A stretch of DNA of 64,000 nt, taken from the NCBI GenBank assembly GCA_014218215.1, contig CP043652.1, forward strand, positions 992,001-1,056,000, in the 5' to 3' direction. This DNA is from Geodermatophilaceae bacterium NBWT11 (GTDB lineage Bacteria > Actinomycetota > Actinomycetes > Mycobacteriales > Geodermatophilaceae). Of this stretch, positions 20,034-64,000 are shown piece by piece. Position numbers and translations under genes: made by a program. The first letter of the stretch is position 1. Each line of letters starts with the position of its first letter. A model generated the notes under the pieces. That model saw only the letters and a program-made list of their open reading frames with translations. It did not search any database and was not told the DNA's origin.

Positions 20034-21839
20034 TCAGACCACCACAGCCTGACACCCGAGCTGCAGGTAGGTGCTCTGCGCGGTGATCGGTATGCCGTAA
20101 GCGCAGACGGTGTGCAGCCCCGGAGACACGGCGAACTCGGCGGCGAAGCCGTGCGTCTGACCGGTGTCGGAGAAGTGCGACGACAGGTCCGGCCTGGCCA
20201 GACCAGCCTGCACCGAACCCACCGCCACGTCGTCGGCGTACAGGTCCACCCGGGTCACCCCCGCCGCAGCTGCCGAGTCGACGGACCAACCCGTGACGGA
20301 GACGCGTCCACCCCGGGCACTCACGGTGTCCAGACTGCCGACGACGTTCTGGGGCAGGACCACGGCCACGCAGCCCAGGACGCTGTTGTCACCGCGGCTC
20401 CCGGCCACGTTGATGCCGAAGGCACAGACGGACGCCGCCCCCCCACCTCCGCTGAGAGCCGTCCCCGAGAAGCCGTGCCCCGCACCCAACCGGGGGAAGA
20501 CCCTGGCGACGTCGGCCCGCGCACCCCCGGCGCTGAGCGCCGTGCCCGTCCCGGCGACGTAGACGTGCGCCTCCGTCGGAGTCGTGGGGCGGTCGGGATC
20601 GGCGGTCCAGCCCGCGACCGCCACCGTCCGCATCCCCGTGACCGTGGCCGAGTCGAGGTGACCGATCGGGTCGATCGCTGCCGTCACCGTCGCGCAGACC
20701 ACGGTGTTCGCCGTCCCCGCACCCACGTTGATCCAGTAGGAACAGACCTGGTGCGTACCGCTGGCCACGGGGACGTCGATCGACCAACCGTGTCCCGAGC
20801 CGACCCCGGGGTACGCCGCCCCCACGTCCGGACGCGGGTCCCCGGCGTACCGGGAGGAGGCCCCCACGCCGTCGACGTAGGTGTCCACCCGGACGGGATC
20901 CTGGGGCACGTCCGGGTCGAACACCCACCCCCGCAGGCGGAACACCCCCGAGGACACCTCGGAGACCTCGTCCAGACTGCCCACCGGGTTCCGGCTGGAC
21001 GCCGGTGGGGGGACACGACCTCCGGGGAAGAGCCGCTCGACCACTCCGGTGAGGGTCTGACCGGCAGTCGCGTAGGACGTGCCGGAGCCCACCTGCGACA
21101 GGACCACGACGACGAACCGGTTGTCCGCGCCGAGGACCCCGGACGTGTGCAGCCGCCGCTGGCCCTCTTGGCAGCACATCCAGCCCTGCTTGACGCCGCG
21201 GCTCTCGGCGGGCATGGCCTGCGGGATGCCGAAGAACTGGTCGAAGCCGTCCGTGCCGTTGCGCGTCGCGCTGCGCATCAGGCCCACCAGGTGGTCCCTG
21301 TCCTCCGGGACCAGTCCCCCGGCCAGCATGCCGCGGTAGAAGGCCATGATGTCGTGCGCGGTGATCTGGTACATGCCCCAGTAGCTCGGGGTCGGCGGTG
21401 GCCCGATCTCGGACAGGCCGTACTTGCGCGCCACCTCGGCCACCATGCCCTGCCCGCCGAACCGGCTGTACAGGCTGGACATCGCAGCGTCGTCGGAGCT
21501 GCGGATCATGACGTCCATCAGGGCCCGGTCCTGCGCCGACAGTGCGATCTGGCCCGTCCTGGCGCGGCTGAGGAGACTCTCGGCGACGAAGAGCTTGACG
21601 ATGGACGCCGATCGCATACGGGTGTGGGACCAGACGTTCTCGCTGACGAAGCCCGTCTCCCGGTCGAGCACCGAGATGCCGACCTGGCCCCGCCCCGCCG
21701 CGAAGTCCGACGCCACCGTCATCTGCGTGGAGAGGTCGTAGGCGGGTGCGGCCCGGGCCACGGGAGCCGCGACGACGGCCAGGCTGGAGAACAGGAGTCC
21801 GGCCACGGTCGCCGCGACGGCGACCATCCTCAGCCGCAC
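20034..21839 (-). CDS. Secreted serine hydrolase (class A beta-lactamase fold) with three C-terminal wall modules
   Basis: 601 residues from GTG 21839, chosen because a GGAGG site stands 5 bases before it. A signal peptide (about 1-31, ending VARAAP) is followed by a penicillin-binding/beta-lactamase-like domain (about 35-272). That domain has SIVK (Ser79-Lys82), an SDN-like SDD (115-117) and KQG (216-218) in place of KTG. It is more likely a D,D-peptidase or related wall enzyme than a drug-resistance enzyme, but this is untested. Residues about 284-601 hold three copies of the module shared with three other proteins in this window. It overlaps the upstream lipoprotein gene by 10 bases and precedes manC. 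Confidence 0.82.
   Translation of the reverse strand: MRLRMVAVAATVAGLLFSSLAVVAAPVARAAPAYDLSTQMTVASDFAAGRGQVGISVLDRETGFVSENVWSHTRMRSASIVKLFVAESLLSRARTGQIALSAQDRALMDVMIRSSDDAAMSSLYSRFGGQGMVAEVARKYGLSEIGPPPTPSYWGMYQITAHDIMAFYRGMLAGGLVPEDRDHLVGLMRSATRNGTDGFDQFFGIPQAMPAESRGVKQGWMCCQEGQRRLHTSGVLGADNRFVVVVLSQVGSGTSYATAGQTLTGVVERLFPGGRVPPPASSRNPVGSLDEVSEVSSGVFRLRGWVFDPDVPQDPVRVDTYVDGVGASSRYAGDPRPDVGAAYPGVGSGHGWSIDVPVASGTHQVCSYWINVGAGTANTVVCATVTAAIDPIGHLDSATVTGMRTVAVAGWTADPDRPTTPTEAHVYVAGTGTALSAGGARADVARVFPRLGAGHGFSGTALSGGGGAASVCAFGINVAGSRGDNSVLGCVAVVLPQNVVGSLDTVSARGGRVSVTGWSVDSAAAAGVTRVDLYADDVAVGSVQAGLARPDLSSHFSDTGQTHGFAAEFAVSPGLHTVCAYGIPITAQSTYLQLGCQAVVV
20037..20990 (-). repeat. Three ~105-residue modules in the serine hydrolase
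   Basis: Diverged copies of the shared module, recognisable by GxxDxV...GW.xDPD...VDxYVDG, RPDV, GHG[FW] and two Cys (VCxY and a final C). Copies 1 and 2 are typical. In copy 3 the DPD and HVY motifs have drifted (VDSAAA, VDLYADD). Confidence 0.8.
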
Positions 21840-22378
21840 GTCGCCTCCAGGTCGAGCGAGCCCGTCGACTCCGACGTGCGTGCGTGGAACAGCGATGCAG
21901 CGAGCACGATGCTCTCCCCGTCTCGTTGGGTGCGGACGTCGACCACGTCGTTCTCCAGGACCACCCCGGGAGCGGTGACCGTCAGCCGGGCCCCGGTCTC
22001 GTCGGCCGCCAGGAGCACTGCCGATCCGTCGTCGAGGGTCATGGCGAGGGCGCCGGCGCCATCCGCTCCGCACGTGCCGACCACGTCCTCGTCGAACGAG
22101 GCGGTGCCCGTCAGCGCCAGGACCAGACGACCGGTCAACACGCCGGTGGGGAGTGTCGCGATCGTCTCAGCCAGCCCCACGGACGAGGGGTCCTCCGGGG
22201 GCGGCGCGAGCACGTCGTCCCCCGGCAGGTCGGCAGTCTCCCGAGCCGGTGCCGACACCGCCCCTGGAGTCTCGGCAGGGGTCGACGAGCACCCTGGGAC
22301 GAGCACGGTCGACGCCGCCCCCAGGCCGAAGAGGACCCAGGAACGGCGTCTGCGGATGGTCACGACCGGTAGCGTCAC
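21830..22378 (-). CDS. Putative lipoprotein upstream of the serine hydrolase
   Basis: 182 residues. An RRRR-containing n-region, a hydrophobic core and a lipobox LVPGC (Cys30) indicate export and lipid anchoring. A Pro-rich spacer follows, then a beta-rich domain (about 65-182) with two Cys that I do not recognise. The GTG at 22378 has no clear ribosome-binding site, and a GTG five codons later is an alternative. Its stop lies inside the start of the serine hydrolase gene, so translation is coupled. A similar lipoprotein-hydrolase pair occurs at 38-39 kb. Confidence 0.7.
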   Translation of the reverse strand: MTLPVVTIRRRRSWVLFGLGAASTVLVPGCSSTPAETPGAVSAPARETADLPGDDVLAPPPEDPSSVGLAETIATLPTGVLTGRLVLALTGTASFDEDVVGTCGADGAGALAMTLDDGSAVLLAADETGARLTVTAPGVVLENDVVDVRTQRDGESIVLAASLFHARTSESTGSLDLEATCG

Positions 22379-22572
22379 AGCAACAGTGCGCTACGGCAAC
22401 CACCTCCCCACTGCCGTGTCGTCCCGGCTCGACGTGGCGGGAGCCCAGTGGCCGGCCGTCCTGCGGACAGGCAGGAGCAGCCACGTCGTCCGGGACGAAC
22501 GCCCCGGGAGCGGCGGGCTGAGCAGTTACAGTGGCTCCCCGTGATGGACAACCGCACGACGCCTGACGCCCG

Positions 22573-23379
22573 GTGAGCGCGCTCACCGATCTCCGCTCGT
22601 CCCGCGACCTGTTGGTCAACCTCACGATGCGCGAGGTGAAGGGCAAGTACAAGCGGACCGTTCTGGGACAGGCCTGGTCCCTGCTCAACCCGGTGGCTGT
22701 CATGGCGACCTACGCCGTGGTGTTCGCCTTCGTCCTGCGGGCTCGGCCCGAGGCCGGAGACCCGTCGGGTCTGGACGTGTTCGCCCTGTGGCTGGCGGCC
22801 GCTCTGCTCCCCTGGATGTTCTTCAACAACGTCGTCGTGTCGGGCATGAACGCGGTGGTGGGGAACGCGAACCTCATCCAGAAGGTCTACTTCCCGCGCG
22901 AGACCCTGGTCCTCTCGAACTCGTTCTCCTGGCTCTTCACGTTCTGCATCGAGATGATCGTGCTCATCGTCGCGACGCTGCTCTTCGGTGGTCAGCCGCT
23001 GCTGCTGGTCCCCGTGACGGCCTTCTTGATGATCCTCCTCGTCGCCTTCGGCACCGGCATCGCGTTCCTGCTGGCCGTCGCGAACGTGTACTTCCGGGAC
23101 ACCCAGCACTTCGTGACGATCTTCATGCAGCTCTGGTTCTACGCCACGCCGATCGTCTACCCGGTGTCGCTCGTCGTCGACGCGAATCCCGCGATCGCGA
23201 CGGTGTACCGGCTCAACCCCATGGAGCGGTTCAGTGAGGCCTTCCGCAACACCGTCTACGACGGGCGTCTGCCCACCCTCAACACGACCATCTACCTGGT
23301 CGTCGTCTCCCTCGTGGTCCTGATGATCGGCTACAGCGTCTTCCGGCGCCGCCAGGGACGACTGGCGGAGGAGCTGTGA
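22573..23379 (+). CDS. wzm: Polysaccharide ABC exporter permease (Wzm-like)
   Basis: 268-residue ABC-2 type membrane protein. The start LLVNLTMREVKGKYKRTVLGQAW is the usual amphipathic entry helix of Wzm/TagG exporters. About six transmembrane segments follow, with WLAAALLPWMFFNN, YFPRE and FYATPIVYP as family landmarks. Together with Wzt it should export a lipid-linked polysaccharide across the membrane. The GTG start is not preceded by a strong ribosome-binding site. The end overlaps the wzt GTG (GTGA). It is divergent from the lipoprotein gene across 194 bases. Confidence 0.92.
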   Translation: MSALTDLRSSRDLLVNLTMREVKGKYKRTVLGQAWSLLNPVAVMATYAVVFAFVLRARPEAGDPSGLDVFALWLAAALLPWMFFNNVVVSGMNAVVGNANLIQKVYFPRETLVLSNSFSWLFTFCIEMIVLIVATLLFGGQPLLLVPVTAFLMILLVAFGTGIAFLLAVANVYFRDTQHFVTIFMQLWFYATPIVYPVSLVVDANPAIATVYRLNPMERFSEAFRNTVYDGRLPTLNTTIYLVVVSLVVLMIGYSVFRRRQGRLAEEL

Positions 23380-24605
23380 GCACCGCGATCGTCGTCGACG
23401 ACGTCTCCAAGAGGTTCCGCCTGTACAAGGAGCGGAACCAGTCGCTCAAGGCCGCCCTCATGCGGGGCAAGCGGGCCACCTACGACGAGTTCTGGGCGCT
23501 GCGCAACGTCTCCTTCGAGATCCCGACCGGATCGACCTTCGGTCTCATCGGGGAGAACGGGTCGGGCAAGTCGACCCTGCTCAAGTGCATCGCCCGGATC
23601 CTCGAGCCCGACACCGGCGGGGTGAAGGTCAACGGCACGATGGCCGCGTTGCTCGAACTCGGTTCCGGGTTCCACCCTGAGATGTCGGGGCGGGAGAACG
23701 TGTACCTCAACGGCTCGATCCTCGGCATGAAGAAGGCCGAGATCGACCGGAAGTTCGACACGATCGTCGACTTCGCCGGCATCGACACGTTCATCGACCA
23801 GCCCGTCAAGAACTACTCCTCGGGCATGTACGTGCGCTTGGGCTTCTCCGTGGCCATCAACATCGATCCCGACGTGCTCCTGGTGGACGAGGTGCTCGCT
23901 GTCGGCGACGCCATGTTCCAGGAGAAGTGCATGGAGAAGTTCGCCGAGTTCCGGCGAGCCGGCAAGACCGTGGTCATCGTCAGCCACGCCATGGGCTCCA
24001 TGCGATCCCTCTGCGACAACGTGGCCTGGCTCAAGCACGGTGAGCTCGTCGAGGTGGGCGACTCCAACGACGTGGTGGACACCTACGTCGACGAAGGGCA
24101 CGTCGAACGGGTGGAGCTCTCCGACGGCAGTTCGAGGTGGGGCAGTGGCGAGGGCCAGCTGACGAAGATCGAGATGTTGGACGGTGAAGGCTCCGCGACC
24201 ACCCGGTTCTACCCCGGCGACCCCGTGACGTTCCGGCTCCACTTCGACACGACGAAGCCGATCGAACGGCCCGTCTTCGGTCTGGCGATGGAGACGATCG
24301 AGGGTCTCTACGTCTGGGCTCACCACAGTCGCGACGGGAACATGGTCCCCGACCGGATCGACGGACCGGGGTCCGTGGACCTGGTGGTCCCCGCACTCCC
24401 CCTCCAGGCCGGCGCCTACGACCTGAACGCGTCCATCGTGGACTACACGACGACGCACACCTTCGACTTCCGGCGGTCGTGCTACCGCTTCGACGTCCTC
24501 AACCGCACGCCACACGAGTCCGGCGGTGTCGCCGTCCTGGGCGGGCAGTGGGGAAACCTCACCACGTCTGACCCGACGCCCCGCGTCACCACGACAACCG
24601 AGTGA
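23376..24605 (+). CDS. wzt: Polysaccharide ABC exporter ATPase with C-terminal Wzt-type domain
   Basis: 409 residues. The nucleotide-binding domain (about 1-245) has Walker A GENGSGKST (59-67), signature YSSGMYVRL, Walker B DVLLVDE and the switch His in VSHAMGS. A beta-sandwich C-terminal domain (about 255-409, with GDPVTFRLHFDT) corresponds to the Wzt_C carbohydrate-binding domain. In E. coli O9a and similar systems this domain recognises the capped end of the polymer before export. A capping enzyme should therefore exist, and the methyltransferase at 34.9-35.8 kb is a candidate. It overlaps both neighbours by 4 bases. Confidence 0.92.
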   Translation: MSTAIVVDDVSKRFRLYKERNQSLKAALMRGKRATYDEFWALRNVSFEIPTGSTFGLIGENGSGKSTLLKCIARILEPDTGGVKVNGTMAALLELGSGFHPEMSGRENVYLNGSILGMKKAEIDRKFDTIVDFAGIDTFIDQPVKNYSSGMYVRLGFSVAINIDPDVLLVDEVLAVGDAMFQEKCMEKFAEFRRAGKTVVIVSHAMGSMRSLCDNVAWLKHGELVEVGDSNDVVDTYVDEGHVERVELSDGSSRWGSGEGQLTKIEMLDGEGSATTRFYPGDPVTFRLHFDTTKPIERPVFGLAMETIEGLYVWAHHSRDGNMVPDRIDGPGSVDLVVPALPLQAGAYDLNASIVDYTTTHTFDFRRSCYRFDVLNRTPHESGGVAVLGGQWGNLTTSDPTPRVTTTTE

Positions 24606-27145
24606 TCCAGGAAGAGAGCCCCACCGTGCCGGTGCCCCAGACGTTCCACCCGGGTGACCGGGAAGCCGGAGTCGTCTCCGTCGTCATCGTCAACTACCGA
24701 GGGGTCGAGGACACCCTCACGTGCATCCGCGGTCTGGCTGAGCTGGACTGGGCCGAGGACCGTCTGGAGATCGTCGTCGTCGACAACGCCTCCGGTGACG
24801 GCAGCGCCGAGACGATCCGGACCCAGGCGCCGCACGTGGTCCTGGTCGCCTCCGAGGAGAACACCGGTTTCGCCGGCGGTTGCAACCTCGGCGTGCGGCG
24901 TTCGCGGGGTGAGTACGTCGCGCTGATCAACAGCGACGCTCGTCCCGACCGCCGCTGGCTGGCCGAGGCGGTGGCCGTGCTGAAGAGCGAGACCTCGGTC
25001 GGGGCGGTCGCCTCCAAGGTCTTGGACTGGGCAGGCGAGAAGGTGGACTACGTCGGTGGGGGCGTCAACTTCCAGGGTCAGGGCTACAAGCTCGAGGCGG
25101 GCCGACCCGACAGCGACGAGTGGTCGACTCCCCGGGACGTCCTGTTCTTCACGGGTTCCGCCGCCGTGCTCCGGGTCTCCGCCTTCGCCGACGCCGGGGG
25201 GTTCGACGAGCAGTTCTTCATGTTCTACGAGGACGTGGACCTGGGTTGGCGTCTGAACCTGCTGGGCCACCGGGTGCGCTACGTACCGTCCTCCCTCGTC
25301 TTCCACCGCCACCACGCGTCCATCGAGAAGTTCGGCTCCTACCGCGAGCGGTACCTGCTCGAGCGGAACGCACTGCTGACGCTGTACAAGAACCTGGGCG
25401 AGGACGGTCTGCACGCGGCGCTGGCACCGGCGTTGATGCTCGCGGTCCACAACGCGATGCTGCTGGGCGGAGAAGACCCGACGGCGCTCGACCTGCAGCG
25501 GACGACGTCCGGTGACCGCGAGCCCGCCATGAGCGTCGACAAGCTCACCATGTCGGCCGTCCACGCCATCGACTACCTGGCCACGCACCTGACCTCGGTG
25601 GAGGCACAGCGTCGCGAGATCCAGGGCAGTCGGCTGCTCGCCGACGACGCCGTCCCCGGGCTCCTCGCCGGCATGCTCCAACCTGCCAGCCCGTTCGCGG
25701 AGTTCGGCCCGGTCTGGAGGTCCGCTGTCGACACGTTCGGCCTCGAGGGACACTTCTCGGTCCGGCGCAAGATCGCCGTCATCACCGCCGACACCCTCGC
25801 GCCCAGCATGGCGGGGCCCGCGATCCGCGCCTTCCACATCGCCGAGGAGCTGGCCGCCGAGCACGACGTCCGACTGGCCTCCACCACCGCGTGCTCGATC
25901 AGCCCCGCGACGGTCTCTGCGTCCTTCGTGAACGAGAGCAGGCTCCGCCTGCTGGTCGACTGGGCCGACATCATCGTCTTCCAGGGCTTCATCCTGCAGG
26001 CAGCTCCGTGGATCGCGGACACCGACAAGATCCTGGTGGTCGACATCTACGACCCGATCCACCTCGAGCAGCTCGAGCAGACGCGCGAGGACACCTACGA
26101 CCAGCGCGAGCTGTGGGTCACCGCCACCACGAACTCGCTGAACCGGGACCTGCGCCGGGGCGACTTCTTCATGTGCGCCAGTGAGGAGCAGCGCCACTTC
26201 TGGCTCGGCCAGCTCGCGGGCATGAACCGGCTGAACCCCCTGAACTACGACCGCGACTCCTCCCTGCACTCACTCCTGTCGGTCGTGCCCTTCGGCATGG
26301 CGGCCGAGGACCCGGTGCGCACCGCTCCCGCCATCCGCGGGAAGGTCCCGGGGATCGGTCCGGACGACAAGGTGATCCTGTGGGCCGGCGGCGTCTACAA
26401 CTGGTTCGACCCGGTGACCCTCGTGAAGGCGGTCCACCGCCTCTCCGAGACGCGACCCGACGTGAAGCTCTACTTCATGGGGATGAAGCACCCCAACCCG
26501 CACGTGCCCGAGATGAAGGTCGCCTGGGAGACGAGGCAGACCGCGGACGAGCTGGGGATGACCGGGCAGCACGTCTTCTTCAACGACACGTGGGTGGACT
26601 ACGACCAGCGGCAGAACTACCTCCTGGACGCCGATCTGGGCGTCTCCACCCACTTCCAGCACGTCGAGACGACGTTCTCCTTCCGCACCCGCATGCTGGA
26701 CTACCTGTGGGCAGGGCTCCCCATCGTGGCGACCGAGGGCGACTCCTTCGGCCGTCTGATCGAGTCCGAGGGGCTGGGGCTCACCGTCCCCGAGCGCGAC
26801 GTCACCGCCCTGGCCGATGCCCTCGAGCGGGTGCTCTACGACCAGGAGTTCCGGAGCACGTCCATCGAGAACGTCCAGCGGGTCCGCGAACAGTTCCGCT
26901 GGCGCAGTGCGCTGGCGCCGCTGGTCGCGTTCTGCCGTGACGCGCACCGCGCAGCGGACCTCCAGACCCAGGCCCACGACCGCGCCCGGCTGGGTGTCGT
27001 CGTGCCGGCCATCACCGGGAGCATCGTCCGTCGCAACATCGCCTACGCCCGCGCTCGCCGCGCAGAGGTCGGGGTCGGCGGGATGATCAAGCACGGGGCG
27101 GTCAAGGCCGGGCGGTTGGCTCGACGAGGCGTCCAGCGCGTCTGA
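24602..27145 (+). CDS. Bimodular glycosyltransferase (GT2 + GT4-like)
   Basis: 847 residues, GTG start overlapping wzt. The N-terminal GT2 module (about 22-300) has VVIVNYRG, VVVDNASGDGS, the metal-binding INSDA, FFTGSAAVL and YEDVDLGWRL, typical of rhamnosyltransferase-like enzymes. The C-terminal module (about 390-800) has a Rossmann-type GT-B layout with MAGPAIR, CASEEQRHFWLGQL, WAGGVYNWFDP, MGMKHPNPHVP and DYLWAGLPIV. This second module is clearly paralogous to the single-domain protein at 33.5-34.8 kb. It probably adds two sugars in sequence to the exported polymer. Donors are unknown. Confidence 0.9.
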   Translation: MIQEESPTVPVPQTFHPGDREAGVVSVVIVNYRGVEDTLTCIRGLAELDWAEDRLEIVVVDNASGDGSAETIRTQAPHVVLVASEENTGFAGGCNLGVRRSRGEYVALINSDARPDRRWLAEAVAVLKSETSVGAVASKVLDWAGEKVDYVGGGVNFQGQGYKLEAGRPDSDEWSTPRDVLFFTGSAAVLRVSAFADAGGFDEQFFMFYEDVDLGWRLNLLGHRVRYVPSSLVFHRHHASIEKFGSYRERYLLERNALLTLYKNLGEDGLHAALAPALMLAVHNAMLLGGEDPTALDLQRTTSGDREPAMSVDKLTMSAVHAIDYLATHLTSVEAQRREIQGSRLLADDAVPGLLAGMLQPASPFAEFGPVWRSAVDTFGLEGHFSVRRKIAVITADTLAPSMAGPAIRAFHIAEELAAEHDVRLASTTACSISPATVSASFVNESRLRLLVDWADIIVFQGFILQAAPWIADTDKILVVDIYDPIHLEQLEQTREDTYDQRELWVTATTNSLNRDLRRGDFFMCASEEQRHFWLGQLAGMNRLNPLNYDRDSSLHSLLSVVPFGMAAEDPVRTAPAIRGKVPGIGPDDKVILWAGGVYNWFDPVTLVKAVHRLSETRPDVKLYFMGMKHPNPHVPEMKVAWETRQTADELGMTGQHVFFNDTWVDYDQRQNYLLDADLGVSTHFQHVETTFSFRTRMLDYLWAGLPIVATEGDSFGRLIESEGLGLTVPERDVTALADALERVLYDQEFRSTSIENVQRVREQFRWRSALAPLVAFCRDAHRAADLQTQAHDRARLGVVVPAITGSIVRRNIAYARARRAEVGVGGMIKHGAVKAGRLARRGVQRV

Positions 27146-27155
27146 GCTGCAGGAT

Positions 27156-29352: not shown

Positions 29353-30225
29353 ATGCGCGGCATCATCTTGGCAGGCGGCAGCGGGACCCGGCTCTACCCG
29401 ATCACCAAGGCGATCAGCAAGCAGCTGATGCCGATCTACGACAAGCCGATGGTGTACTACCCCCTCTCGCTGCTGATGAACGCCGGCATCCGCGAGGTCC
29501 TGGTGATCACCACGCCGGACGACCAACCGGGGTTCCAGCGGTTGCTGGGGGACGGTTCCGACATCGGGATCGAGATCACCTACGCCGTACAGCCCCGACC
29601 CGAGGGCCTGGCGCAGGCGTTCGTGATCGGCGCGGACTTCATCGGTGCAGAACCGGTCGCCCTGGTGTTGGGGGACAACATCTTCTACGGCACCGGGTTG
29701 GGCGAGAGCCTGAGGGCGAACACGAACCCTCACGGTGGGCACGTCTTCGCCTACCACGTGGCCAACCCCACGGACTACGGCGTGGTGGAGTTCGACGACG
29801 GCGGCAGGGTGATCTCGATCGAGGAGAAGCCGACGTCGCCCAAGAGCTCGTACGCCGTCCCCGGCCTGTACTTCTACGACAACCAGGTCGTCGACATCGC
29901 CTCGAAGGTCACCCCCAGCCCCCGGGGTGAACTGGAGATCACGGCGGTCAACGACGAGTACCTCCGTCGTGGGGAGCTCACCGTCACGGTCTTGGAGCGC
30001 GGCACGGCCTGGCTGGACACCGGCACCCACGCCTCGATGATGCAGGCGGCCGAGTTCGTCCGGGTGGTCGAGGAACGACAGGGTTGGAAGATCGGGTGCA
30101 TCGAGGAGGTCGCATGGCGTCGCGGCTTCATCGACGACCAGAAGCTGGCTCTGCTCGCCGGACCGCTGAAGAAGAGCGGGTACGGGGAGTACCTGCTGGG
30201 CTTGCTGGAGGAGACCGGCCGCTGA
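29353..30225 (+). CDS. rmlA: Glucose-1-phosphate thymidylyltransferase
   Basis: 290-residue enzyme making dTDP-glucose, the first step of dTDP-L-rhamnose synthesis. It shows the full family pattern: [70 protein letters not shown] and WLDTGTH. Length is normal. It stands alone on the plus strand between two minus-strand GT4 genes. Its end is 7 bases from a convergent gene, with no hairpin between them. Confidence 0.96.
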
Positions 30226-33451: not shown

Positions 33452-34849
33452 TCAGGACCCGGTCAGACGCCGGACTCGCCCGAGAACACGACGAACCACC
33501 TCGCGCACCCCGCCCTGGCGGACGTAGAGGACCAGGGTGCGGACGTCACCCCCGACACTCCAGCGCCTGGCCGGTGCCTGCATGCCCGGCGGACGCACCG
33601 CTGCGATGCCGGCCAGACGGTCGGCTGCCGGGCGGGGGTCACGGCAGTAGGCCAGCAGCGGCGCCAGCACGGTCGGCCAGGTGTACTCGTCCCGGACGCC
33701 CTGCACGGCTGCCCTGGCGTCGGCCGCCGCGGCGGGGTCCAGGAGCAGTCGCCGCAGCGCGTCCCGCAAGGCCGGGGCATCGCCTTCGGGGACGCTGGCG
33801 CCCAGACCCCGTGCGTCCACCAGGTCGGCGAAGTGGTCTCCCGTCGTGGTGACCACGGGCAGTCCCGCCCACAGGTAGTCCAGGATGCGGGTGCGGAAGG
33901 AGAACGCCGTCTCGACGTGGTCGAAGTGGGTGCTGACTCCGATGTCAGCGTCCAGGAGGTGGTTCTGCCGCTGGGAGTACTCGACCCAGCCGGAGTTGAA
34001 GAAGACGTGTTCACCCGTGAGGCCCAGGCGGTCGCTCAACGCCCTCGTCGCCGTGGCTGCCCGCATGCGCGGCACGTCCGGGTTCGGGTGCTTGAGCCCC
34101 ATGAAGTAGAGCCTGACGTCGTGCACGTCCGCGCGCAGCAGGTCCACGGCCCGCACGACGGTCTCGGGGTCGAACCAGTTGTAGACCCCGCCCGCCCAGA
34201 TGACGACCCGGTCGTGTGCGCCGATGCCCGGGACCACCCCCCTGATCCCAGGGCCGTCACGACGCGGGGGGTCGGCCGACAGCCCGAACGGGACGACGTC
34301 GATCAGACGCCGCAGTGTGCGGTCCTCGTCGTAGGTGCGGGGGTTCAACCTCCCGGCGGCCGCCAGCTGCCCCAGCCAGAAGTCACGCTGCTTCTCGCTG
34401 GCGCAGATGAAGAAGTCGCCCCGGACCATCTGGTCGTTGAGGGTGTTGACCGCTCCGGCGACGATGCGTGCGTACTCGTCAGGCTCCTCGTCCTTGGCCT
34501 GCTCGAGCTGCTCCAGGTGGAGCGGGTCGTAGACGTCGCACACCAGCAGCACGTCGGACTCGGTGATCCAGGGAGCAGCGGTGAGCAGGTAGCCCTGCAC
34601 GATGGCGACGTCAGCCCATGCCACGTGCTCACGCAGTCCGTCGAACGTGACCGCGGCCGTCTCGAAGCCCTCGCCCGGGCGGTCGCAGGCGCTCGTGCTG
34701 ACCAACCTGACGTCGTGCTCCCGGCCCAGTTCACCGGCCATGTGCCAGGACCGGATGGCCGGACCCGCCATCCGGTCGGAGATGGTGTCCCCGCACACGA
34801 CCAGGACCCTGCGCTGCCTGACGGCCTCCGTCGTGCCGGCCTGCGTCAC
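33452..34849 (-). CDS. Glycosyltransferase, paralogue of the C-terminal half of the bimodular enzyme
   Basis: 465 residues from GTG 34849. A TTG at 34861 overlapping the methyltransferase stop is the alternative. The whole protein lines up with the C-terminal module of the 847-residue enzyme at 24.6-27.1 kb: RMAGPAIRSWHMA, VYDPLHLEQLEQ, CASEKQRDFWLGQLA, WAGGVYNWFDPETV, MGLKHPNPDVP, STHFDHVETAFSFRTRILDYLWAGLP. The 70-residue tail is basic. It is coupled to the upstream methyltransferase gene. The sugar transferred is not deducible from sequence. Confidence 0.87.
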   Translation of the reverse strand: MTQAGTTEAVRQRRVLVVCGDTISDRMAGPAIRSWHMAGELGREHDVRLVSTSACDRPGEGFETAAVTFDGLREHVAWADVAIVQGYLLTAAPWITESDVLLVCDVYDPLHLEQLEQAKDEEPDEYARIVAGAVNTLNDQMVRGDFFICASEKQRDFWLGQLAAAGRLNPRTYDEDRTLRRLIDVVPFGLSADPPRRDGPGIRGVVPGIGAHDRVVIWAGGVYNWFDPETVVRAVDLLRADVHDVRLYFMGLKHPNPDVPRMRAATATRALSDRLGLTGEHVFFNSGWVEYSQRQNHLLDADIGVSTHFDHVETAFSFRTRILDYLWAGLPVVTTTGDHFADLVDARGLGASVPEGDAPALRDALRRLLLDPAAAADARAAVQGVRDEYTWPTVLAPLLAYCRDPRPAADRLAGIAAVRPPGMQAPARRWSVGGDVRTLVLYVRQGGVREVVRRVLGRVRRLTGS

Positions 34850-34857
34850 CGGCGCTG

Positions 34858-35835
34858 TCAACCCCGCAGCCGGCCGTAGACACGCCGCGGGAGGGCGACT
34901 GCGCGGAACGTCTTCGTCGCCTCCGTCCTGGCCACCAGCTGCTCGGCGCTCTCCCGCCCGTCGAGCGCCGTCTGCAGGGCCTGCTCGGCAGCCGCCAGCT
35001 CCCGGACGACCTTGTCCCGGTCGACGGTCATGGCGTTCAGGGCCACGTCGGTGTGCTCGGCACGGGCCTGGCACTGCGAGTGGGCGGCTCGCAGCTCGGC
35101 GAGCTCCCTGTTCGCGTCCAACAACCGCCAGGCCACCTGCGACTCCGCCCGGACGACGTCGTCGGGCGCAGCCCTGAGGACGAACTGGTAGACCCCCGAT
35201 TCCGGGTCCTGACGGACTGCCTCGACGAGCTCGGCGGGGTAGTCAGCCGGGTCGAGCTGCAGCTCCGTGCCGAAGAGCGGCGCGTACGTCGCCCGGACGT
35301 CGACCGGGACCATGCCCGCCTCGCGGAGGAAGGCGTCGAGGTTGGACCGGGTGAAGAAACGGACGTGGGTCTCGTCCAGGAGTCCGGTGGACCGGTAGTC
35401 GAACTTCCCACGCAGCAGTGCGAGCCGGACGTCACCGTGGGCGATGTTCGGGACGGAGATGACGACACTGCCCCCGGGGACGAGGAGCCTCCTTGCCCCG
35501 CGGAGGACCGGGAGGGGGTCCCTGAGGTGCTCCAGGACGTCACCGAAGACGACGACGTCGAACGAGGCGTCCTCGAAGTCGTCGTAGATCCCCGGTGCCT
35601 CGAGGTCGCCGACGACCACGTGGTCCAGGAAGGGCCTCGCCTTGTCGGCCGAGGCCTGGTCGTACTCGATCCCCGACACGGCGTTGCCGTGCTCACGCAG
35701 CGCCTTCGCCAGGTACCCCGTCGAACAGCCGACGTCGAGGACCCGCTTGTTGGCGCCCACCAGCGCCATCATCAGGCCGTGACTGGTCTGGTCCTCTCCG
35801 GCGGACAGTTCGATGTCGTACTTGGAGACGGACAC
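34858..35835 (-). CDS. SAM-dependent methyltransferase with C-terminal coiled coil (possible chain-capping enzyme)
   Basis: 325 residues. The class I methyltransferase domain (about 1-215) has motif I LDVGCSTGYLAKAL, GIEYD as the acidic loop, DVVVFGDVLEHLRDPL and PGGSVVISVPNIAH. From about residue 230 to 305 the sequence is Ala/Glu/Arg/Leu-rich with heptad-like spacing, suggesting a coiled coil, and it ends with a basic patch. This layout recalls WbdD-type capping enzymes, whose coiled coil sets chain length in Wzm/Wzt systems. That parallel is inference. GTG start with GAGGAG upstream. The start lies 50 bases after the transglycosylase-like gene. Confidence 0.82.
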   Translation of the reverse strand: MSVSKYDIELSAGEDQTSHGLMMALVGANKRVLDVGCSTGYLAKALREHGNAVSGIEYDQASADKARPFLDHVVVGDLEAPGIYDDFEDASFDVVVFGDVLEHLRDPLPVLRGARRLLVPGGSVVISVPNIAHGDVRLALLRGKFDYRSTGLLDETHVRFFTRSNLDAFLREAGMVPVDVRATYAPLFGTELQLDPADYPAELVEAVRQDPESGVYQFVLRAAPDDVVRAESQVAWRLLDANRELAELRAAHSQCQARAEHTDVALNAMTVDRDKVVRELAAAEQALQTALDGRESAEQLVARTEATKTFRAVALPRRVYGRLRG

Positions 35836-35885: not shown

Positions 35886-38360
35886 TCACCCCCGCACCGC
35901 CGTGCAACCCACCGGGGGATTGGTCGTGCCGGCGCCCAGGTTGAGCGCGAAGACGCAGACCTGACGTGCGTTCGCCGGGGCGGTGAAGACGCCGGAGAAC
36001 CCGTGCAGCGGCCCTGCGCCGGGGCGGGCCCCGGCGATGTCGGGCCGGGATCCACCGGCCACCAGAGCGCCGGTGTACTGGCCGTCCACGTACACGTGCA
36101 CGGTCACCGGGGTGGTGGGCAGGTCGGGGTCGAGTGCCCAGCCGGAGACGGTGAGGGCGCCACCGGTGACCTGTGCCGAGTCGAGGACCCCCTCGGGGTT
36201 GCGAGTAGCAGGGTCGACGACCACCACGCTCCGGCAACCCAGCGTGGGGTTCGTCGTCCCGGCACCGGTGTTGATCGCGTAGACGCAGACCGTGTGCCTG
36301 CCCGGGGCGAGCTGGGTGGACCAGGTGTAGCCGTGCCGGGGCCCGATGCCGGACACGGCCTGCGCGACGTCCGGTCGATCCCCGTCGGCGACCACGGACG
36401 CAGCGAACGCGCCGTCGACGTAGACGTGCACCGACGTGGGGGCGTCAGGAGCATCCGGGTCGACGACCCACCCGGAGAGGCCCAACGAGCCGGTCATCCC
36501 GACCACGGTGTCCAGGGCTCCGAACGGGTTCGCCTGCGCGGCGGTGGTGGTCCGGACGGACCGACACCCGAGGGTGGGGTTGGTGGTCCCGTATCCGCTG
36601 TTCAGCGCGTACACGCACACGGTGTGATCGCCCGCGCCGACGATGCCGCTCCAGTCGAAACCGTGGGCCGCTCCGGCGCCCGGTCGCGCAGCGGCGACGT
36701 CCGGGCGGGTGAGCCGGGCCGAGACCGACGCCACCTGGGTGCCGTCGACGTAGACGTGGACCGTCGCGGGAGCCGTGGGACTGTCCGGGTCGAGAGCCCA
36801 GCCCGTCACCCGGACCGTTCCACCGGCCCCGGTGGCGGTGTCCAGGGAGCCCACGGGGTCGAAGTCCCGCGGATCAGGGACGGTGACCTGCCGACAACCC
36901 AGGAGGGGGCTGGCCGAACCCCGACCGACGTTCAACGCGTAGACGCACACCGCGTGGTCCCCGGCCCTCGACGAGGTGGTCCACGAGAAGCCCGTGCCCG
37001 GTCCGGCCCCGTAGGCAGCCGCCACGTCCGGACGACCGACGCCCGTCGCGACGGACCGGGCGAACACACCGTCCACGTAGACGTGCACCGTCGTCGGGGC
37101 GACCAGGGCGTCGGGGTCGAACGCCCAGCCCCGGACGGTCACCTGACCTGGCACCGCGGAGACCTCGTCCACCTGGCCGACGGGCGCATGCGAGTCGACG
37201 TTCACGACGGTGCGGCAGCCGAGTTGCGGGTTGCTGACGCCCCCGATGTTGATCGCGTAGACACAGACCTCGTGGGAACCCAGGGACGCGTTCACGGACA
37301 GCTCGAACCCGTGCCGGGCGTCGACACCGTGGGCAGCCCCGACGTCCGGGCGGTTCCCGTCTGCCACGACTGCTGTGCGGTAGCTGCCGTCGACGTAGAC
37401 GTGGACCGTCACCGGCTGCGACGTGTCCGTGCGATCGAAGACCCAGCCCCTGACGGCGTAGGAACCGTCGGCCGAGGAGACCGTGTCGAGGTTGCCCTCC
37501 GGCACCACGTCGGCAGCGCCCACCTGGGTCGAGCCGAACCAGTCCGTGAAGTAGAGCCAGAAGTTCCGGTTGCCGTACGCCGAGCAGCTGTTGCCGCTGC
37601 CGTAGCCGGCGGCCAACGCGGCCGCGTTCGGCTGGTAGGGCGTGTAGTTGTACAGACCGGCGGTCGCCTGGTTCTGGAGGACCACGGGCCCGGCGCCACA
37701 GGACGCCGTCGGGGAGAACCGCACCTGGTTCACGATGCCGACACGGTGCGTGTACCGGCTGGGGTTCGCCGCGTACACCTGGAACTGGCGCGCAGCGTTG
37801 TAGACCTGGTTGAAGAACCCGTAGTACTGGCTGTCACACGCTGCGGTGTCCGGGCACCCGAACCCCATGGCGCCCCGGTAGCGGCTCGCTGAACCGGTCC
37901 CCGTGACGAGCCCCTGCTCCTTCTGCAGCATGACCAACAGGGCTCGCGGGTTGATGCCGCAGGCGAGCCCGACCTTCGCGATGATCGCGGCCGCGGACTC
38001 CCCCGCTGCTCCCGCGTAGGTGGCGCACCGCGCATCGGCGGGGCGGGTCGTCGTGTCCTGCCGGAAGTCCTTGAGACACGGTGAACCGTCCGACGCCGTC
38101 CTGCACGACGCGCCCTTGGCGGTCAGGAAGGACTGCACGGACGCCGCGTCCATCGCGTCACCGTCGAAGAAGACCGCGTCGCTGATGATGTTGCCCGGGT
38201 CGAACTGGCTCGGGTCCGCGACCGTCTCCAGGACGGTCGGCCCCGGACCGACAGAGGGGGTGGTCGGGGCGCCCGACGTCAGCGCGACGAAGGCGGCCAG
38301 GACGGCGACCACCACGGCGACCGACCGGACTCGGCTGACGAGGGGTTCTGGGCTCCTCAT
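35886..38360 (-). CDS. Secreted transglycosylase-like protein ('hemagglutinin' type) with five C-terminal wall modules
   Basis: 824 residues. Signal peptide at about 1-31. Residues about 52-280 form a domain seen in many exported actinobacterial proteins, often labelled hemagglutinin. It has FDPGNIISDAVFF, a helix LLVMLQKEQGLV whose Glu148 sits like the catalytic Glu of lysozyme-type transglycosylases, GFGCPDTAACD, YGFFNQVYNAARQ and YGNRNFWLYFTDWFG. Enzyme activity is inferred, not established. Residues about 287-824 are five copies of the shared module. The ATG at 38360 overlaps the stop of the upstream lipoprotein gene (ATGA). Confidence 0.82.
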   Translation of the reverse strand: MRSPEPLVSRVRSVAVVVAVLAAFVALTSGAPTTPSVGPGPTVLETVADPSQFDPGNIISDAVFFDGDAMDAASVQSFLTAKGASCRTASDGSPCLKDFRQDTTTRPADARCATYAGAAGESAAAIIAKVGLACGINPRALLVMLQKEQGLVTGTGSASRYRGAMGFGCPDTAACDSQYYGFFNQVYNAARQFQVYAANPSRYTHRVGIVNQVRFSPTASCGAGPVVLQNQATAGLYNYTPYQPNAAALAAGYGSGNSCSAYGNRNFWLYFTDWFGSTQVGAADVVPEGNLDTVSSADGSYAVRGWVFDRTDTSQPVTVHVYVDGSYRTAVVADGNRPDVGAAHGVDARHGFELSVNASLGSHEVCVYAINIGGVSNPQLGCRTVVNVDSHAPVGQVDEVSAVPGQVTVRGWAFDPDALVAPTTVHVYVDGVFARSVATGVGRPDVAAAYGAGPGTGFSWTTSSRAGDHAVCVYALNVGRGSASPLLGCRQVTVPDPRDFDPVGSLDTATGAGGTVRVTGWALDPDSPTAPATVHVYVDGTQVASVSARLTRPDVAAARPGAGAAHGFDWSGIVGAGDHTVCVYALNSGYGTTNPTLGCRSVRTTTAAQANPFGALDTVVGMTGSLGLSGWVVDPDAPDAPTSVHVYVDGAFAASVVADGDRPDVAQAVSGIGPRHGYTWSTQLAPGRHTVCVYAINTGAGTTNPTLGCRSVVVVDPATRNPEGVLDSAQVTGGALTVSGWALDPDLPTTPVTVHVYVDGQYTGALVAGGSRPDIAGARPGAGPLHGFSGVFTAPANARQVCVFALNLGAGTTNPPVGCTAVRG
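35889..37502 (-). repeat. Five ~107-residue modules in the transglycosylase-like protein
   Basis: Copies begin at PEGNLD, PVGQVD, PVGSLD, PFGALD and PEGVLD. Each has GW..DPD (FDRTD in copy 1), VHVYVDG, RPD[VI], a [GH]xG[FY] turn and two Cys (VCVYA[IL]N, then [LV]GC). They have diverged from one another, unlike those in the protease at the right edge. Confidence 0.85.
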
Positions 38361-38938
38361 CGCGCCGGCACCTCGACCGTCGCGGGAGCGGACGTCGCCG
38401 TCCCGGCGGCAGACGCGTACGACAAGGTCGCCTGCCACGCACCGGCCGTCAGTTCGTCGGCCTGTACGGAGAGGGTGCCGCAGGACGTGCCGGAGGCATC
38501 TGCCAGACCGGTCGACGTGGCCTCCACGACCACACCCGACCGGTTCAAGGAGAGCGTGCAGGTGCCGCCGGTCTCGACGACCCCGGTGACCACGCCGGAG
38601 GCATCCACACCACCCGGCTCGGCGAACCAACTGACGTAGGTCAACGCGACCTGGAGGTCGCTCCCGCCGGTCACCGGGGCAGGGTCCACGGCCGTGACCG
38701 GCGGGGTCGAGGGGCCGGCGGACGAGGGAGGAGCAGCTCCTGACGGCTCACCCGGTGTCGACGCCCCGCCAGGGGAAGGTGTCCCCGACGACGGGGCTGC
38801 GGACGAACTGGGCTGGTCCGGGGTGGCGCTGCCGGCGCCCACTCGTGTGTCGGGCGCACTGCACGAGGCAGCCGCGGCCACGACGGCGAGAGCCGAGGCC
38901 GCCACGGCGGCCTGCCGGACGATCGTGCGACTGGACAT
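38357..38938 (-). CDS. Putative lipoprotein between the amidase and transglycosylase genes
   Basis: 193 residues from ATG 38938, which has an AGAGAGG site 9 bases upstream. A GTG at 38971 overlapping the amidase stop would add 11 residues. An export signal ends at AAAASC, which fits a lipobox. It is followed by a Ser/Pro/Gly-rich linker (about 30-85) and a C-terminal beta-rich domain (about 95-193) with a Cys pair, of no family I recognise. The stop overlaps the transglycosylase start. It probably sits on the outer face of the membrane and may assist its operon partners. Confidence 0.72.
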   Translation of the reverse strand: MSSRTIVRQAAVAASALAVVAAAASCSAPDTRVGAGSATPDQPSSSAAPSSGTPSPGGASTPGEPSGAAPPSSAGPSTPPVTAVDPAPVTGGSDLQVALTYVSWFAEPGGVDASGVVTGVVETGGTCTLSLNRSGVVVEATSTGLADASGTSCGTLSVQADELTAGAWQATLSYASAAGTATSAPATVEVPAR

Positions 38939-44007: not shown

Positions 44008-44183
44008 CGAGTGGGAGTCCTTCGCGTTGGTGGTCAGCACACAGACGGGACGTGAGTGTTCCAGAGCGGGCGTCGCAGACCGGTTCTGACAGGTCGTCGT
44101 CGTATCGTCACGTCGATCCCGCCGCTGGACGACGACCCCTGGTGCGTGTGCCGAGGCGCCCCGCCCGACGTGAGGACGACACC

Positions 44184-51991: not shown

Positions 51992-51994
51992 GGC

Positions 51995-57615: not shown

Positions 57616-57635
57616 GTCACCTACGCTACGGCGCT

Positions 57636-60075: not shown

Positions 60076-60148
60076 GCAGCCTGACCGCGATCGTCGTCGT
60101 CGGGGCTGGCTACAGTCCGACGAGTTCTCATCGAGGAGGCTGTGCGCT

Positions 60149-61909: not shown

Positions 61910-61920
61910 CTCTCGTCGAC

Positions 61921-61959
61921 GACAGCGGGCCCCGACCGGATCGGTCGGGGCCCGCTGTC
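61921..61959. terminator. Bidirectional hairpin between accA and the protease gene
   Basis: An 18-bp perfect stem (61921-61938 with 61942-61959) with a 3-base loop, 11 bases after the accA stop and 23 bases from the end of the convergent protease gene. It is the strongest hairpin in the window. Confidence 0.85.
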
Positions 61960-61982
61960 CTCAGGTGATGCCGTGGTCCGGG

Positions 61983-64000
61983 TCAGGCCGTGATCGACCG
62001 GCACCCCAGGCTGGTGTTCCGCGACGGGGTGTCCACGTCGATGGCATAGACACACACCGAGTGCGTACCCGGCGCCACCTGCGTGGAGAACGAGAACCCG
62101 TGCGCCGAACCCGACCCCGGGAAGACCGCACCCACATCCGGCCGCGACCCATCAGCCACCAACGCCGTCCCGCGACCATCCACGTACACGTGCACCTGAC
62201 CGGCCACCAACGGCTGATCCGGGTCCAACGCCCAACCCCGGACACTCACCGTCCCCGCCGACGCAGCCAACGAGTCCCAACTCGCCAACGGCAACGCCAT
62301 CTGCGTGGTGATCGACCGGCACCCCAGGCTGGTGTTCCGCGACGGGGTGTCCACGTCGATGGCATAGACACACACCGAGTGCGTACCCGGCGCCACCTGC
62401 GTGGAGAACGAGAACCCGTGCGCCGAACCCGACCCCGGGAAGACCGCACCCACATCCGGCCGCGACCCATCAGCCACCAACGCCGTCCCGCGACCATCCA
62501 CGTACACGTGCACCTGACCGGCCACCAACGGCTGATCCGGGTCCAACGCCCAACCCCGGACACTCACCGTCCCAGCCGACGCAGCCAACGAGTCCCAACT
62601 CGCCAACGGCAACGCCATCTGCGTGGTGATCGACCGGCACCCCAGGCTGGTGTTCCGCGACGGGGTGTCCACGTCGATGGCATAGACACACACCGAGTGC
62701 GTACCCGGCGCCACCTGCGTGGAGAACGAGAACCCGTGCGCCGAACCCGACCCCGGGAAGACCGCACCCACATCCGGCCGCGACCCATCAGCCACCAACG
62801 CCGTCCCGCGACCATCCACGTACACGTGCACCTGACCGGCCACCAACGGCTGATCCGGGTCCAACGCCCAACCCCGGACACTCACCGTCCCCGCCGACGC
62901 AGCCAACGAGTCCCAACTCGCCAACGGCAGTCGCTGGCCCACGATGGCGATGGGGGCTGTCCCGCCGGCGCGCGGGACGACCGTCACCATCGCCTCGGTG
63001 CCTGCGGCGTACTGGACGGCAAGCCGGAAGTCCCCACCGGCGAGGGAGATGGTGGAACCAGACGGGACCACCGTCATCCGATCGGCGTCCCACCCAGCAG
63101 CAGACGTCGGGGTGCCGTCCAACAGGAGGGACGTGTCGTCGCCCTCGGCGGCGCGGCGCACCGTCACTCCCTCTTGCAGTTGGAACACGTCGTCGGCGGT
63201 CCCGAGCCACGCGTCCTGACCCGTGGGGGCGCGGTACTCCACCCAGTAGGTCGCCCCGTTCGCCGCGCTCAGCTTGAGGGCTCTCGTACCCCCGGACGCT
63301 GACACCGGGGACAAGAACACGTTCTCGGCCGCGCCCGAGGGCGTCAGTTCGGCCACCTGACCAGGGTCGAGGACGCCCAGACGAGCCGCCTGAGCCGTGT
63401 TCAGCGAACCCAGACGAGCCCAGGACGCCCCCATGACGTCGTAGAAGTCCCGGTACGGGGACACCTGACACGTACCCGCCTCGGTCGTCGCGTTGCACTG
63501 GAGCTGGGACGAGTGACCCAGTCCGAAGTTGTGCCCCAGCTCGTGGGCGAGGACCGACGTCCCGGCCGCCCTGACGTACAACCTCCCTCCTGAGGTCGCT
63601 GAACCGCCCACCTCTGCCATGCCGAACGAGCAACCGGGGAGGTTCTGTGGCAGCGAACTCACGTAGACGAGAAGGTGCTTGGTGGGACCAGGGGTCCACC
63701 CCGCGGCCGCGGCAGCCGCGTTCCACAGACCGGTGGGGTCAGAGCACGACGCGCCTGTGCTGACCCAGCCGGACGGGCCCGATGTGGTACCCAACTGGAT
63801 GCGGCCCCCGCTCTGTCCGCGCCAGAAGTCCGCGACCGGTCCGTTCACCGCATTGGCGAGCGTGGCGACCGTCATCGAGTCGGCCTGGCCGCCAGCAGGC
63901 ACCACCCGCACGATCGTGACGCTGTTCGTGACTGCGGTTCCGGCCGCAGCGACAGGAGGATCGACCGGAGCCGCGGCAACGACCGAGGCGGCGAGCACCT
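61983..64000 (-). CDS. Secreted metzincin-type metalloprotease with three near-identical C-terminal wall modules (5' end beyond the window)
   Basis: The first 671 codons from an in-frame GTG at 63998 are visible. They open with AASVVAAAP, the end of a probable signal peptide, so the true start is likely outside the window. The catalytic domain (about 25-350) has HELGHNFGLGH (from residue 152), the HExxHxxGxxH zinc site of metzincins, and a Met-turn FYDVMGA. It looks like the M11/gametolysin-type group. Residues 357-671 are three copies of the shared module, identical in protein sequence where they overlap. Substrate unknown; wall or surface proteins are likely. Confidence 0.88.
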   Translation of the reverse strand, partial: VLAASVVAAAPVDPPVAAAGTAVTNSVTIVRVVPAGGQADSMTVATLANAVNGPVADFWRGQSGGRIQLGTTSGPSGWVSTGASCSDPTGLWNAAAAAAGWTPGPTKHLLVYVSSLPQNLPGCSFGMAEVGGSATSGGRLYVRAAGTSVLAHELGHNFGLGHSSQLQCNATTEAGTCQVSPYRDFYDVMGASWARLGSLNTAQAARLGVLDPGQVAELTPSGAAENVFLSPVSASGGTRALKLSAANGATYWVEYRAPTGQDAWLGTADDVFQLQEGVTVRRAAEGDDTSLLLDGTPTSAAGWDADRMTVVPSGSTISLAGGDFRLAVQYAAGTEAMVTVVPRAGGTAPIAIVGQRLPLASWDSLAASAGTVSVRGWALDPDQPLVAGQVHVYVDGRGTALVADGSRPDVGAVFPGSGSAHGFSFSTQVAPGTHSVCVYAIDVDTPSRNTSLGCRSITTQMALPLASWDSLAASAGTVSVRGWALDPDQPLVAGQVHVYVDGRGTALVADGSRPDVGAVFPGSGSAHGFSFSTQVAPGTHSVCVYAIDVDTPSRNTSLGCRSITTQMALPLASWDSLAASAGTVSVRGWALDPDQPLVAGQVHVYVDGRGTALVADGSRPDVGAVFPGSGSAHGFSFSTQVAPGTHSVCVYAIDVDTPSRNTSLGCRSITA
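61990..62929 (-). repeat. Tandem 318-bp repeat, three copies (last one slightly short)
   Basis: Copies start at 61990, 62308 and 62626. By eye the only difference is one base at 62574 (A in the middle copy, C in the others), which is silent (Ala). The period is 106 codons, matching one module. This points to very recent amplification or ongoing gene conversion. Short-read assemblies could miscount the copies. Confidence 0.95.

Follow-up and report, generated by a model that had tools for sequence, protein, structure and literature searches.

A tandem C-terminal module on secreted enzymes of a Geodermatophilaceae bacterium and its covariation with the neighbouring polymer exporter

Why should secreted enzymes with different catalytic domains, encoded in and around one polysaccharide-export locus, all end in copies of the same module? 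The question is raised by a stretch of 64,000 nucleotides from Geodermatophilaceae bacterium NBWT11 (C1:992001-1056000, where C1 is the only contig, CP043652.1, of a 4.59 Mb genome), hereafter the window. The module is about 101 residues long, contains two cysteines and lies at the C-termini of four enzymes, here called P0001 to P0004 (Table 1). Based on the comparisons described below, we consider it likely that the module, which has a predicted Ig/Fn3-like fold, binds glycan and thereby tethers these enzymes in the wall to the polymer of the neighbouring locus.

A unit profile, iterated from one unit, was run on the window proteins and on all six-frame stop-to-stop stretches of at least 80 residues. 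It returned 16 copies (three in P0001, five in P0002, five in P0003 and three in P0004) with domain E values of 1.7e-33 to 2.7e-45, the same count as in a preliminary description made from the letters alone; beyond these units, the six-frame stretches of the window gave only one non-significant match (E 70). Pairwise identity among the 16 units ranges from 31% to 100%, with a median of 46%. In an alignment of 14 units, from which two of the three near-identical P0004 units were omitted, D6, G19, W20, D23, Y36, R51, D53, G66, C81 and C98 are invariant, so that the two cysteines per copy noted earlier are fully conserved in this set. The earlier inventory of four module proteins holds for the window but not for the genome, where 21 copies are found at E 0.001, all at 1,012,043 to 1,058,191 (46 kb); the five additional copies belong to a fifth protein, a second metzincin encoded just outside the window, the catalytic part of which is 51% identical to that of P0004. 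The three P0004 repeats (window 61990-62925) differ by at most 1 in 300 nucleotides, as do four of the five repeats of the second metzincin (L022:2612-5950; L and G numbers are our handles for loci and genomes). Against the median unit identity of 46%, this near-identity is a sign of recent amplification or gene conversion.

When the four proteins were compared with Pfam and NCBIfam, and 14 and 100 units with Pfam, the module was covered above cut-off by no model; in the preliminary description, too, no named domain had been recognized. Big_7 (PF17957) matched weakly, in 6 of 14 units at E 1 or better and in 26 of 100 units at E 0.1 or better; its gathering cut-off of 24.1 bits was not reached, with one unit scoring 19 bits and the best match (E 2.3e-4) an estimated 22 bits or so. 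LGFP (PF08310) matched neither the four proteins nor a single one of the units scanned, and none of SLH, choline-binding, GW, LysM, SH3 and CWB2 matched in the Pfam scans of the proteins and both unit sets. Sub-cut-off Pfam hits in the near-identical P0004 repeats (e.g., TPR_NPHP3, 25.6 bits versus 100) and a PHROG match of 7.5e-6 spanning 21 residues were taken as chance. A literature search with terms other than the module motifs, in which subscription journals were mostly uncovered, listed no paper that describes the module.

The AlphaFold model of the third P0002 unit is a confident Ig/Fn3-type sandwich (pLDDT 96.6), and this prediction, together with the fold comparison, supports the beta-sandwich guessed earlier. 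The module as modelled would share the Ig-like beta-sandwich of the Big_7 class. Foldseek found no match to the module model at E 1e-3, and the VIA-align values for the module and for the P0002 catalytic domain (8.9 and 9.9) are of a size described as common by the tool itself; fold neighbours were accordingly rejected as a guide to function. As for the catalytic partners, Pfam and NCBIfam matched Beta-lactamase2 in P0001, Amidase_2 in P0003 and a reprolysin/M6-like metzincin in P0004, the last near or below curated cut-offs, in agreement with the earlier naming of a serine hydrolase, an Amidase_2 and a metzincin. P0002 had been called transglycosylase-like; its catalytic domain has no Pfam match, although its predicted structure resembles GH73/lysozyme-type peptidoglycan hydrolases by VIA-align (with Foldseek alone there was no significant match, best E 0.98). 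This domain represents a conserved family lacking a Pfam model, in which E74 and E101 are invariant in 34 sequences.

Within the family Geodermatophilaceae, 112 genomes were compared, of which 18, spread over 5 of 12 genera, contain the module at E 1e-8. With the Wzm of the window as query, 17 genomes match at E 3.4e-48 or better, followed by a gap to 3.8e-37. The module's Wzm clades are present in 16 of the 18 module genomes and in 1 of the 94 others (Fisher p 2.7e-16, a value that ignores kinship among the genomes). The two module genomes without a close Wzm, G117 and G120, are 70% and 80% complete. In 15 of the 16 genomes, Wzm and the module closest to it share a contig and are separated by about 1.5-14 kb; in G116 the two are on separate contigs.

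A further comparison is offered by the P0003 amidase, the catalytic domain of which matches 83 of the 112 genomes at E 1e-30. Eighty stretches, of which 79 were centred on a strong amidase match and the remaining one (G064) on Wzm, together with the window gave 80 orthologous amidases; weak hits in G102, G071 and G046 and a second G012 copy were omitted. The C-terminal type is the module in 12 of these amidases, LGFP in 46, a type that we call V in 13, DUF4214 in 6 and other in 3. It should be noted that the LGFP type was assigned by our own profile from six loci, with which Pfam agrees in the one locus checked (8 repeats); that DUF4214 was assigned by reading in 6 genomes, with Pfam agreeing in 3 of 3 checked and G070 being incomplete; and that V is a loose regular-expression class that includes G024 and G104, whose stretch is partly SpoIID-like. 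Pfam gave no match in the four V arrays (of 13) that were checked, nor in the two 'other' arrays checked. An amidase and a Wzm occur together in 59 of the 81 stretches, 1.9-17.5 kb apart, regardless of repeat type. Orthologues of P0002, found in 10 of 25 genomes, likewise carry the module (2), LGFP-type repeats (6) or neither (1), with one being incomplete.

Two anchor types deserve separate mention. A C-terminal array of about 235 residues, with recurring GDWDGDG-like motifs and without a Pfam match (L164:8832-9548, L194:5476-6168, L159:6555-7259), is another anchor type on the amidase; the genomes that have it contain GlfT2 and, for the most part, few LGFP copies. In one exporter clade, the orthologous amidase carries DUF4214 (L150:10439-11068, L208:9850-10479, L189:10021-10647) in the position taken elsewhere by LGFP or the module, an exchange that hints at a wall-anchoring role for DUF4214.

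The polymer genes largely follow the same division. The module loci number 17, namely 12 that include a module amidase and five from module genomes without one (loci end at 20 kb or at contig ends). Of these, 16 have a relative of the dual glycosyltransferase of the window, as compared to 1 of 65 LGFP, V and DUF4214 loci, and that weakly (56 bits), and to two of the three 'other' loci, again weakly. A relative of a further glycosyltransferase, akin to the C-terminal half of the dual enzyme, is found in 13 of the 17 module loci, whereas all other rows lack one. GlfT2 shows the opposite trend: at the level of whole genomes, it occurs in 1 of the 18 with the module as opposed to 70 of the 94 without it (p 4e-8). 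Broken down by amidase type, the counts are 0 of 12 for the module, 39 of 46 for LGFP, 12 of 13 for V, 0 of 6 for DUF4214 and 2 of 3 for other. In the single LGFP locus scanned, GlfT2 lies near the exporter; in mycobacteria, according to the accessible text of PMC10951656, galactan is made by GlfT2 and exported by Wzm-Wzt. The preliminary description had suggested a test for co-occurrence with Wzm/Wzt-rml loci. Co-occurrence is borne out for the Wzm clades and the dual glycosyltransferase but not for rml, which we rejected as the marker because many module loci, as delimited here, lack RmlA-, RmlB- and RmlC-like genes.

Beyond the family, the association is retained in part. Of the collected loci of at least 15 kb, 39 of 48 hold two or more homologues of the window's glycan genes. 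Outside Geodermatophilaceae (with L093 counted inside the family), this is true of 32 of 39 long loci, with Wzm in 19 and a match of at least 250 bits to the dual glycosyltransferase in 21; some of these loci share one genome and are not independent. By comparison, among 20 stretches of 20 kb, which were chosen by hand in five module genomes at sites apart from the locus, none has two glycan homologues and 2 have a single weak match. In an even sample of the phylum, where 18 of 346 genomes contain the module (own genome included), the glycosyltransferase marker is present in 9 of 17 module genomes and in 4 of 35 others (p 0.002); the coupling of module and locus is looser at the level of the phylum than in the family.

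The tree of Wzm (68 rows) places the module rows in three groups, each with mixed genera, and DUF4214 in a single starred clade. In 61 genomes, both genes are present and the C-terminal type is clear. Mapped on the Wzm tree, this type requires 5 changes; on the tree of the amidase catalytic domain it requires 8, and when shuffled about 24. Reduced to module versus not, the numbers are 2 and 4, respectively, while genus requires 28 changes on the Wzm tree and 23 on the amidase tree. On the latter, the module amidase of G125 is the starred sister of the DUF4214 amidase of G122. Anchor type largely follows the clade of the neighbouring Wzm exporter. LGFP copies per genome, which are lower bounds, have medians of 3, 32, 0 and 3 for the module, LGFP, DUF4214 and V types, respectively, among the matches listed; the own genome has 0 at E 1e-5. 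Many LGFP copies go with LGFP-type amidases, including copies at sites remote from the locus, again among the matches listed.

Because the module and one kind of polymer cluster tend to appear and disappear together across relatives, the module is probably a handle on that polymer. It would be exported as the C-terminal part of wall-acting enzymes (amidase, GH73/lysozyme-like hydrolase, serine hydrolase and proteases), with tandem copies possibly providing avidity and keeping the enzymes on the surface polymer. That polymer would be made and exported by the neighbouring glycosyltransferases and Wzm/Wzt and presumably linked to peptidoglycan by the LytR-CpsA-Psr protein (LCP). When a lineage swaps its polymer locus, the enzyme anchor would tend to be swapped too, the apparent pairings being the module with a dual-glycosyltransferase polymer, LGFP mostly with GlfT2 galactan loci and DUF4214 with a third exporter clade. 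The sequence comparisons support binding of the locus's own wall polymer, short of proving it. What they show directly is the shared sequence, the predicted fold, the partner enzymes, the linkage to the locus, the exchange of repeats between orthologues and the covariation; binding, avidity and the identity of the polymer are what we infer from them. The shared docking module of the preliminary description stands up to most of the comparative tests (no described domain above cut-off, co-location and repeat exchange). The rml marker and an extension to phage lysins, the latter in the two collections searched, found no support, and the link is looser in the phylum. A wider statement would be that in Actinomycetota the secondary wall polymer sets the entire anchor vocabulary of a genome. 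Catalytic domains would then stay while C-terminal repeats are traded on a change of polymer locus, with the module reading the dual-glycosyltransferase product, LGFP the GlfT2 galactan and DUF4214 a third polymer, and wall chemistry could be predicted from anchor type. This is one on which we are almost evenly divided, leaning slightly towards doubt.

Several observations weigh against a polymer-reading anchor and should be considered when referring to these results. The fold neighbours of the module are common Ig/Fn3 sandwiches, which are often mere spacers. The Fisher values overstate the association because the genomes are related, and only 2 independent pairs lie on starred branches. Both pairs agree with expectation, but with so few the tree comparison is suggestive and no proof. 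LGFP and V interleave on the Wzm tree, and the LGFP genomes G111, G018 and G021 stand beside the DUF4214 clade, in a region with a long-branch warning. A low number of LGFP copies is no peculiarity of module genomes, as the DUF4214 and V types have medians of 0 and 3 among the matches listed. Individual genomes also deviate: G022 (76% complete) has a close Wzm without the module, G117 has one weak module match yet a V-type amidase, G097 holds both the module and GlfT2, and the module genome G006 retains LGFP on its P0002 orthologue. At the phylum level, 8 of 17 module genomes are without the glycosyltransferase marker, and 4 of 35 others have it. Finally, the idea that phage lysins bear the module was rejected, as one pattern run on IMG/VR gave 82 pattern matches with zero confirmed carriers and no module relative was found in 50,697 phage records.

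Other readings of the same data were also considered. Module genes might travel with a mobile polysaccharide island while module and polymer are functionally uncoupled, and the physical linkage of these genes to the locus, the patchy distribution (18 of 112) and exporter clades that mix genera, as transferred islands would, all agree with this. We nonetheless regard it as unlikely, as fewer changes of C-terminal type are needed on the exporter tree than on that of the catalytic domain to which it is joined, and module genomes contain, among the matches listed, few LGFP repeats, of which many lie remote from the locus; simple hitchhiking is disfavoured because LGFP number tracks amidase type away from the locus. 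Still less probable, in our estimation, is an Ig-like spacer or protein-protein domain that distances the catalytic domain from the surface and has no glycan ligand. The predicted fold, the weak Big_7 similarity of 26 of 100 units and the C-terminal tandem arrays would suit such a spacer, yet covariation with the exporter clade, with glycosyltransferase content and with GlfT2 would not be expected of a mere spacer, nor would replacement of LGFP, which the accessible part of PMC3314691 proposes as a wall anchor. That the module binds peptidoglycan or a general wall part, with polymer and anchor both shifting with wall architecture, is very improbable, for although many partners are peptidoglycan enzymes and anchor type also tracks genome-wide LGFP number (among the matches listed), Klenkia and several Blastococcus are all given as containing meso-diaminopimelic acid in the accessible text of PMC5742155 and PMC9686282 while anchors differ within these genera, and the polymer locus is the sharpest correlate. 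The same portions of these two papers list ribose, mannose, glucose and galactose as whole-cell sugars of the K. terrae type strain, with rhamnose not listed. Published wall sugars were rejected as a test, since the module-bearing K. terrae record is of another strain (IHUMI-26.3) than the one whose sugars are given, and they therefore test nothing; if the type strain is comparable, its sugars would speak mildly against a galactose-free, rhamnose-rich wall.

The anchor reading can be placed among known systems. Big_7 and other bacterial Ig-like domains resemble the module weakly over its first half and belong to the same fold class, but their matches remain under the cut-off, and the module has two conserved cysteines and RPD...HGF and C-A-N...GC blocks. 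SLH domains (which bind a pyruvylated wall polymer), choline-binding repeats and GW modules also fix enzymes to a secondary wall polymer by repeats, but differ from the module in folds and ligands, and none matched it in the Pfam scans. The closest parallel in logic is EpaU of Enterococcus faecalis, described in the accessible part of PMC13343894 as an autolysin encoded in the EPA locus, with a variable domain that binds the strain's own polymer. Both cases involve a peptidoglycan hydrolase inside a wall-polysaccharide locus and a variable domain that binds, or here probably binds, the wall; here too, the module genes lie in or beside the polymer locus and, with exceptions, the anchor on an orthologous enzyme changes with locus type. 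As far as that text goes, EpaU is one muramidase of one species with another binding domain, whereas here an unrelated tandem module, mainly of Actinomycetota, is found on enzymes of several classes, and the exchange involves entire families of repeats. We infer that the module may work like the binding domain of EpaU, although it is a different domain, in another phylum and on many enzymes. The functional class is therefore already known, while the module and its covariation with the exporter look new.

LGFP, a repeat described in PMC2447325 and proposed as a wall anchor in PMC3314691 (accessible portions of both), resembles the module in forming tandem C-terminal repeats on the orthologous amidase and on P0002-like hydrolases. 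It differs in that its 53-position model matches no scanned module unit and that it goes mostly with GlfT2 loci. The C-terminal domain of EfAmi1 (PDB 8c4d), which has no InterPro match and is likened by its authors to a carbohydrate-binding module in the accessible text of PMC10167349, is also an unclassified domain on an amidase and has an RPDV...GF stretch in common with the module. Kinship with this domain is not claimed, as the match of E 0.011 obtained with 14 units was absent with 100 units, so that it is no established relative.

Wall-binding domains are usually known singly, whereas the 112 related genomes serve as a natural experiment, in which one orthologous amidase bears anchors of several kinds that can be linked to the clade of the exporter and to glycosyltransferase content. 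Should binding be confirmed, the module would be a new carbohydrate-binding family, LGFP would gain a testable ligand (galactan) and DUF4214 a first hint, and the type of wall polymer might be readable from genome sequence. Modules could also serve as wall-polymer probes for uncultured actinobacteria.

The module is not confined to this family. When 84,980 species genomes were scanned with one pattern, 133 stretches were confirmed, the best 80 of which (76 loci) were analysed; judged by title, these are mostly Actinomycetota with few others (e.g., metagenome-assembled genomes named Acidobacteria). All loci collected, own-genome duplicates included, comprise 529 units on 139 open reading frames. 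The non-module parts form 37 clusters, with the P0002 family in 33 loci and the P0003 family in 19, in each case in addition to the window, so that amidase domains are module partners outside this genome as well. Further partners found by Pfam in 20 representatives are GH25, SpoIID, GH43, trypsin, PG_binding_1, metzincin, RCC1, subtilase, CAP, glucosaminidase, M23, polysaccharide deacetylase and CHAP; 6 of the 20 were without a family, and one had weak NHL hits only. The module is also present on four plasmid records. On two large plasmids, L265 (Curtobacterium pS16) and L266 (Miltoncostaea), it is borne by GH25 or CHAP proteins, and no glycan locus is annotated in the stretches of about 31 kb around them.

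Table 1 Positions of the module enzymes and selected glycan-locus genes in the window.
Feature	Position	Strand	Basis
P0001, secreted serine hydrolase (Beta-lactamase2), 3 C-terminal modules	20034..22073	-	
P0001 Beta-lactamase2 domain, residues 184-325	21099..21524	-	Pfam
P0001 module unit 1	20685..20987	-	profile
P0001 module unit 2	20361..20669	-	profile
P0001 module unit 3	20043..20342	-	profile
P0002, wall hydrolase-like protein, 5 C-terminal modules	35886..38630	-	
P0002 catalytic domain, without Pfam family, predicted GH73/lysozyme-like fold	37509..38219	-	
P0002 module unit 1	37206..37502	-	profile
P0002 module unit 2	36885..37184	-	profile
P0002 module unit 3 (structure predicted)	36555..36857	-	profile, AlphaFold
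P0002 module unit 4	36225..36527	-	profile
P0002 module unit 5	35895..36197	-	profile
P0003, N-acetylmuramoyl-L-alanine amidase (Amidase_2), 5 C-terminal modules	38968..41964	-	
P0003 Amidase_2 domain, residues 280-437	40654..41127	-	Pfam
P0003 module unit 1	40285..40587	-	profile
P0003 module unit 2	39958..40260	-	profile
P0003 module unit 3	39625..39933	-	profile
P0003 module unit 4	39304..39600	-	profile
P0003 module unit 5	38974..39276	-	profile
P0004, metzincin protease, 3 C-terminal modules; frame continues beyond window end	61983..64000	-	
P0004 module unit 1	62628..62927	-	profile
P0004 module unit 2	62310..62609	-	profile
P0004 module unit 3	61992..62291	-	profile
RmlC (dTDP_sugar_isom)	16381..17169	+	
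Wzm-type exporter permease (ABC2_membrane); close relatives track module in family	22573..23379	+	
Wzt-type ATPase with Wzt_C domain	23376..24605	+	
Dual glycosyltransferase (GT2 + group 1), the gene that best marks module loci	24602..27145	+	
Nucleotidyltransferase, RmlA-like (named from Pfam class and length)	29353..30225	+	
Glycosyltransferase akin to C-terminal half of 24602-27145	33452..35074	-	
LytR-CpsA-Psr family protein	44052..45734	+	

The glycan locus of the window comprises RmlC, nucleotidyltransferases, a Wzm-type permease, a Wzt_C protein, several glycosyltransferases, a methyltransferase and an LCP; enzymes of the latter family usually attach wall polymers to peptidoglycan. The labels rmlA, rmlB and manC are tentative names assigned from Pfam class. 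Upstream of the glycan locus are F420 genes, namely CofD and an F420 ligase (window 12838-15139).

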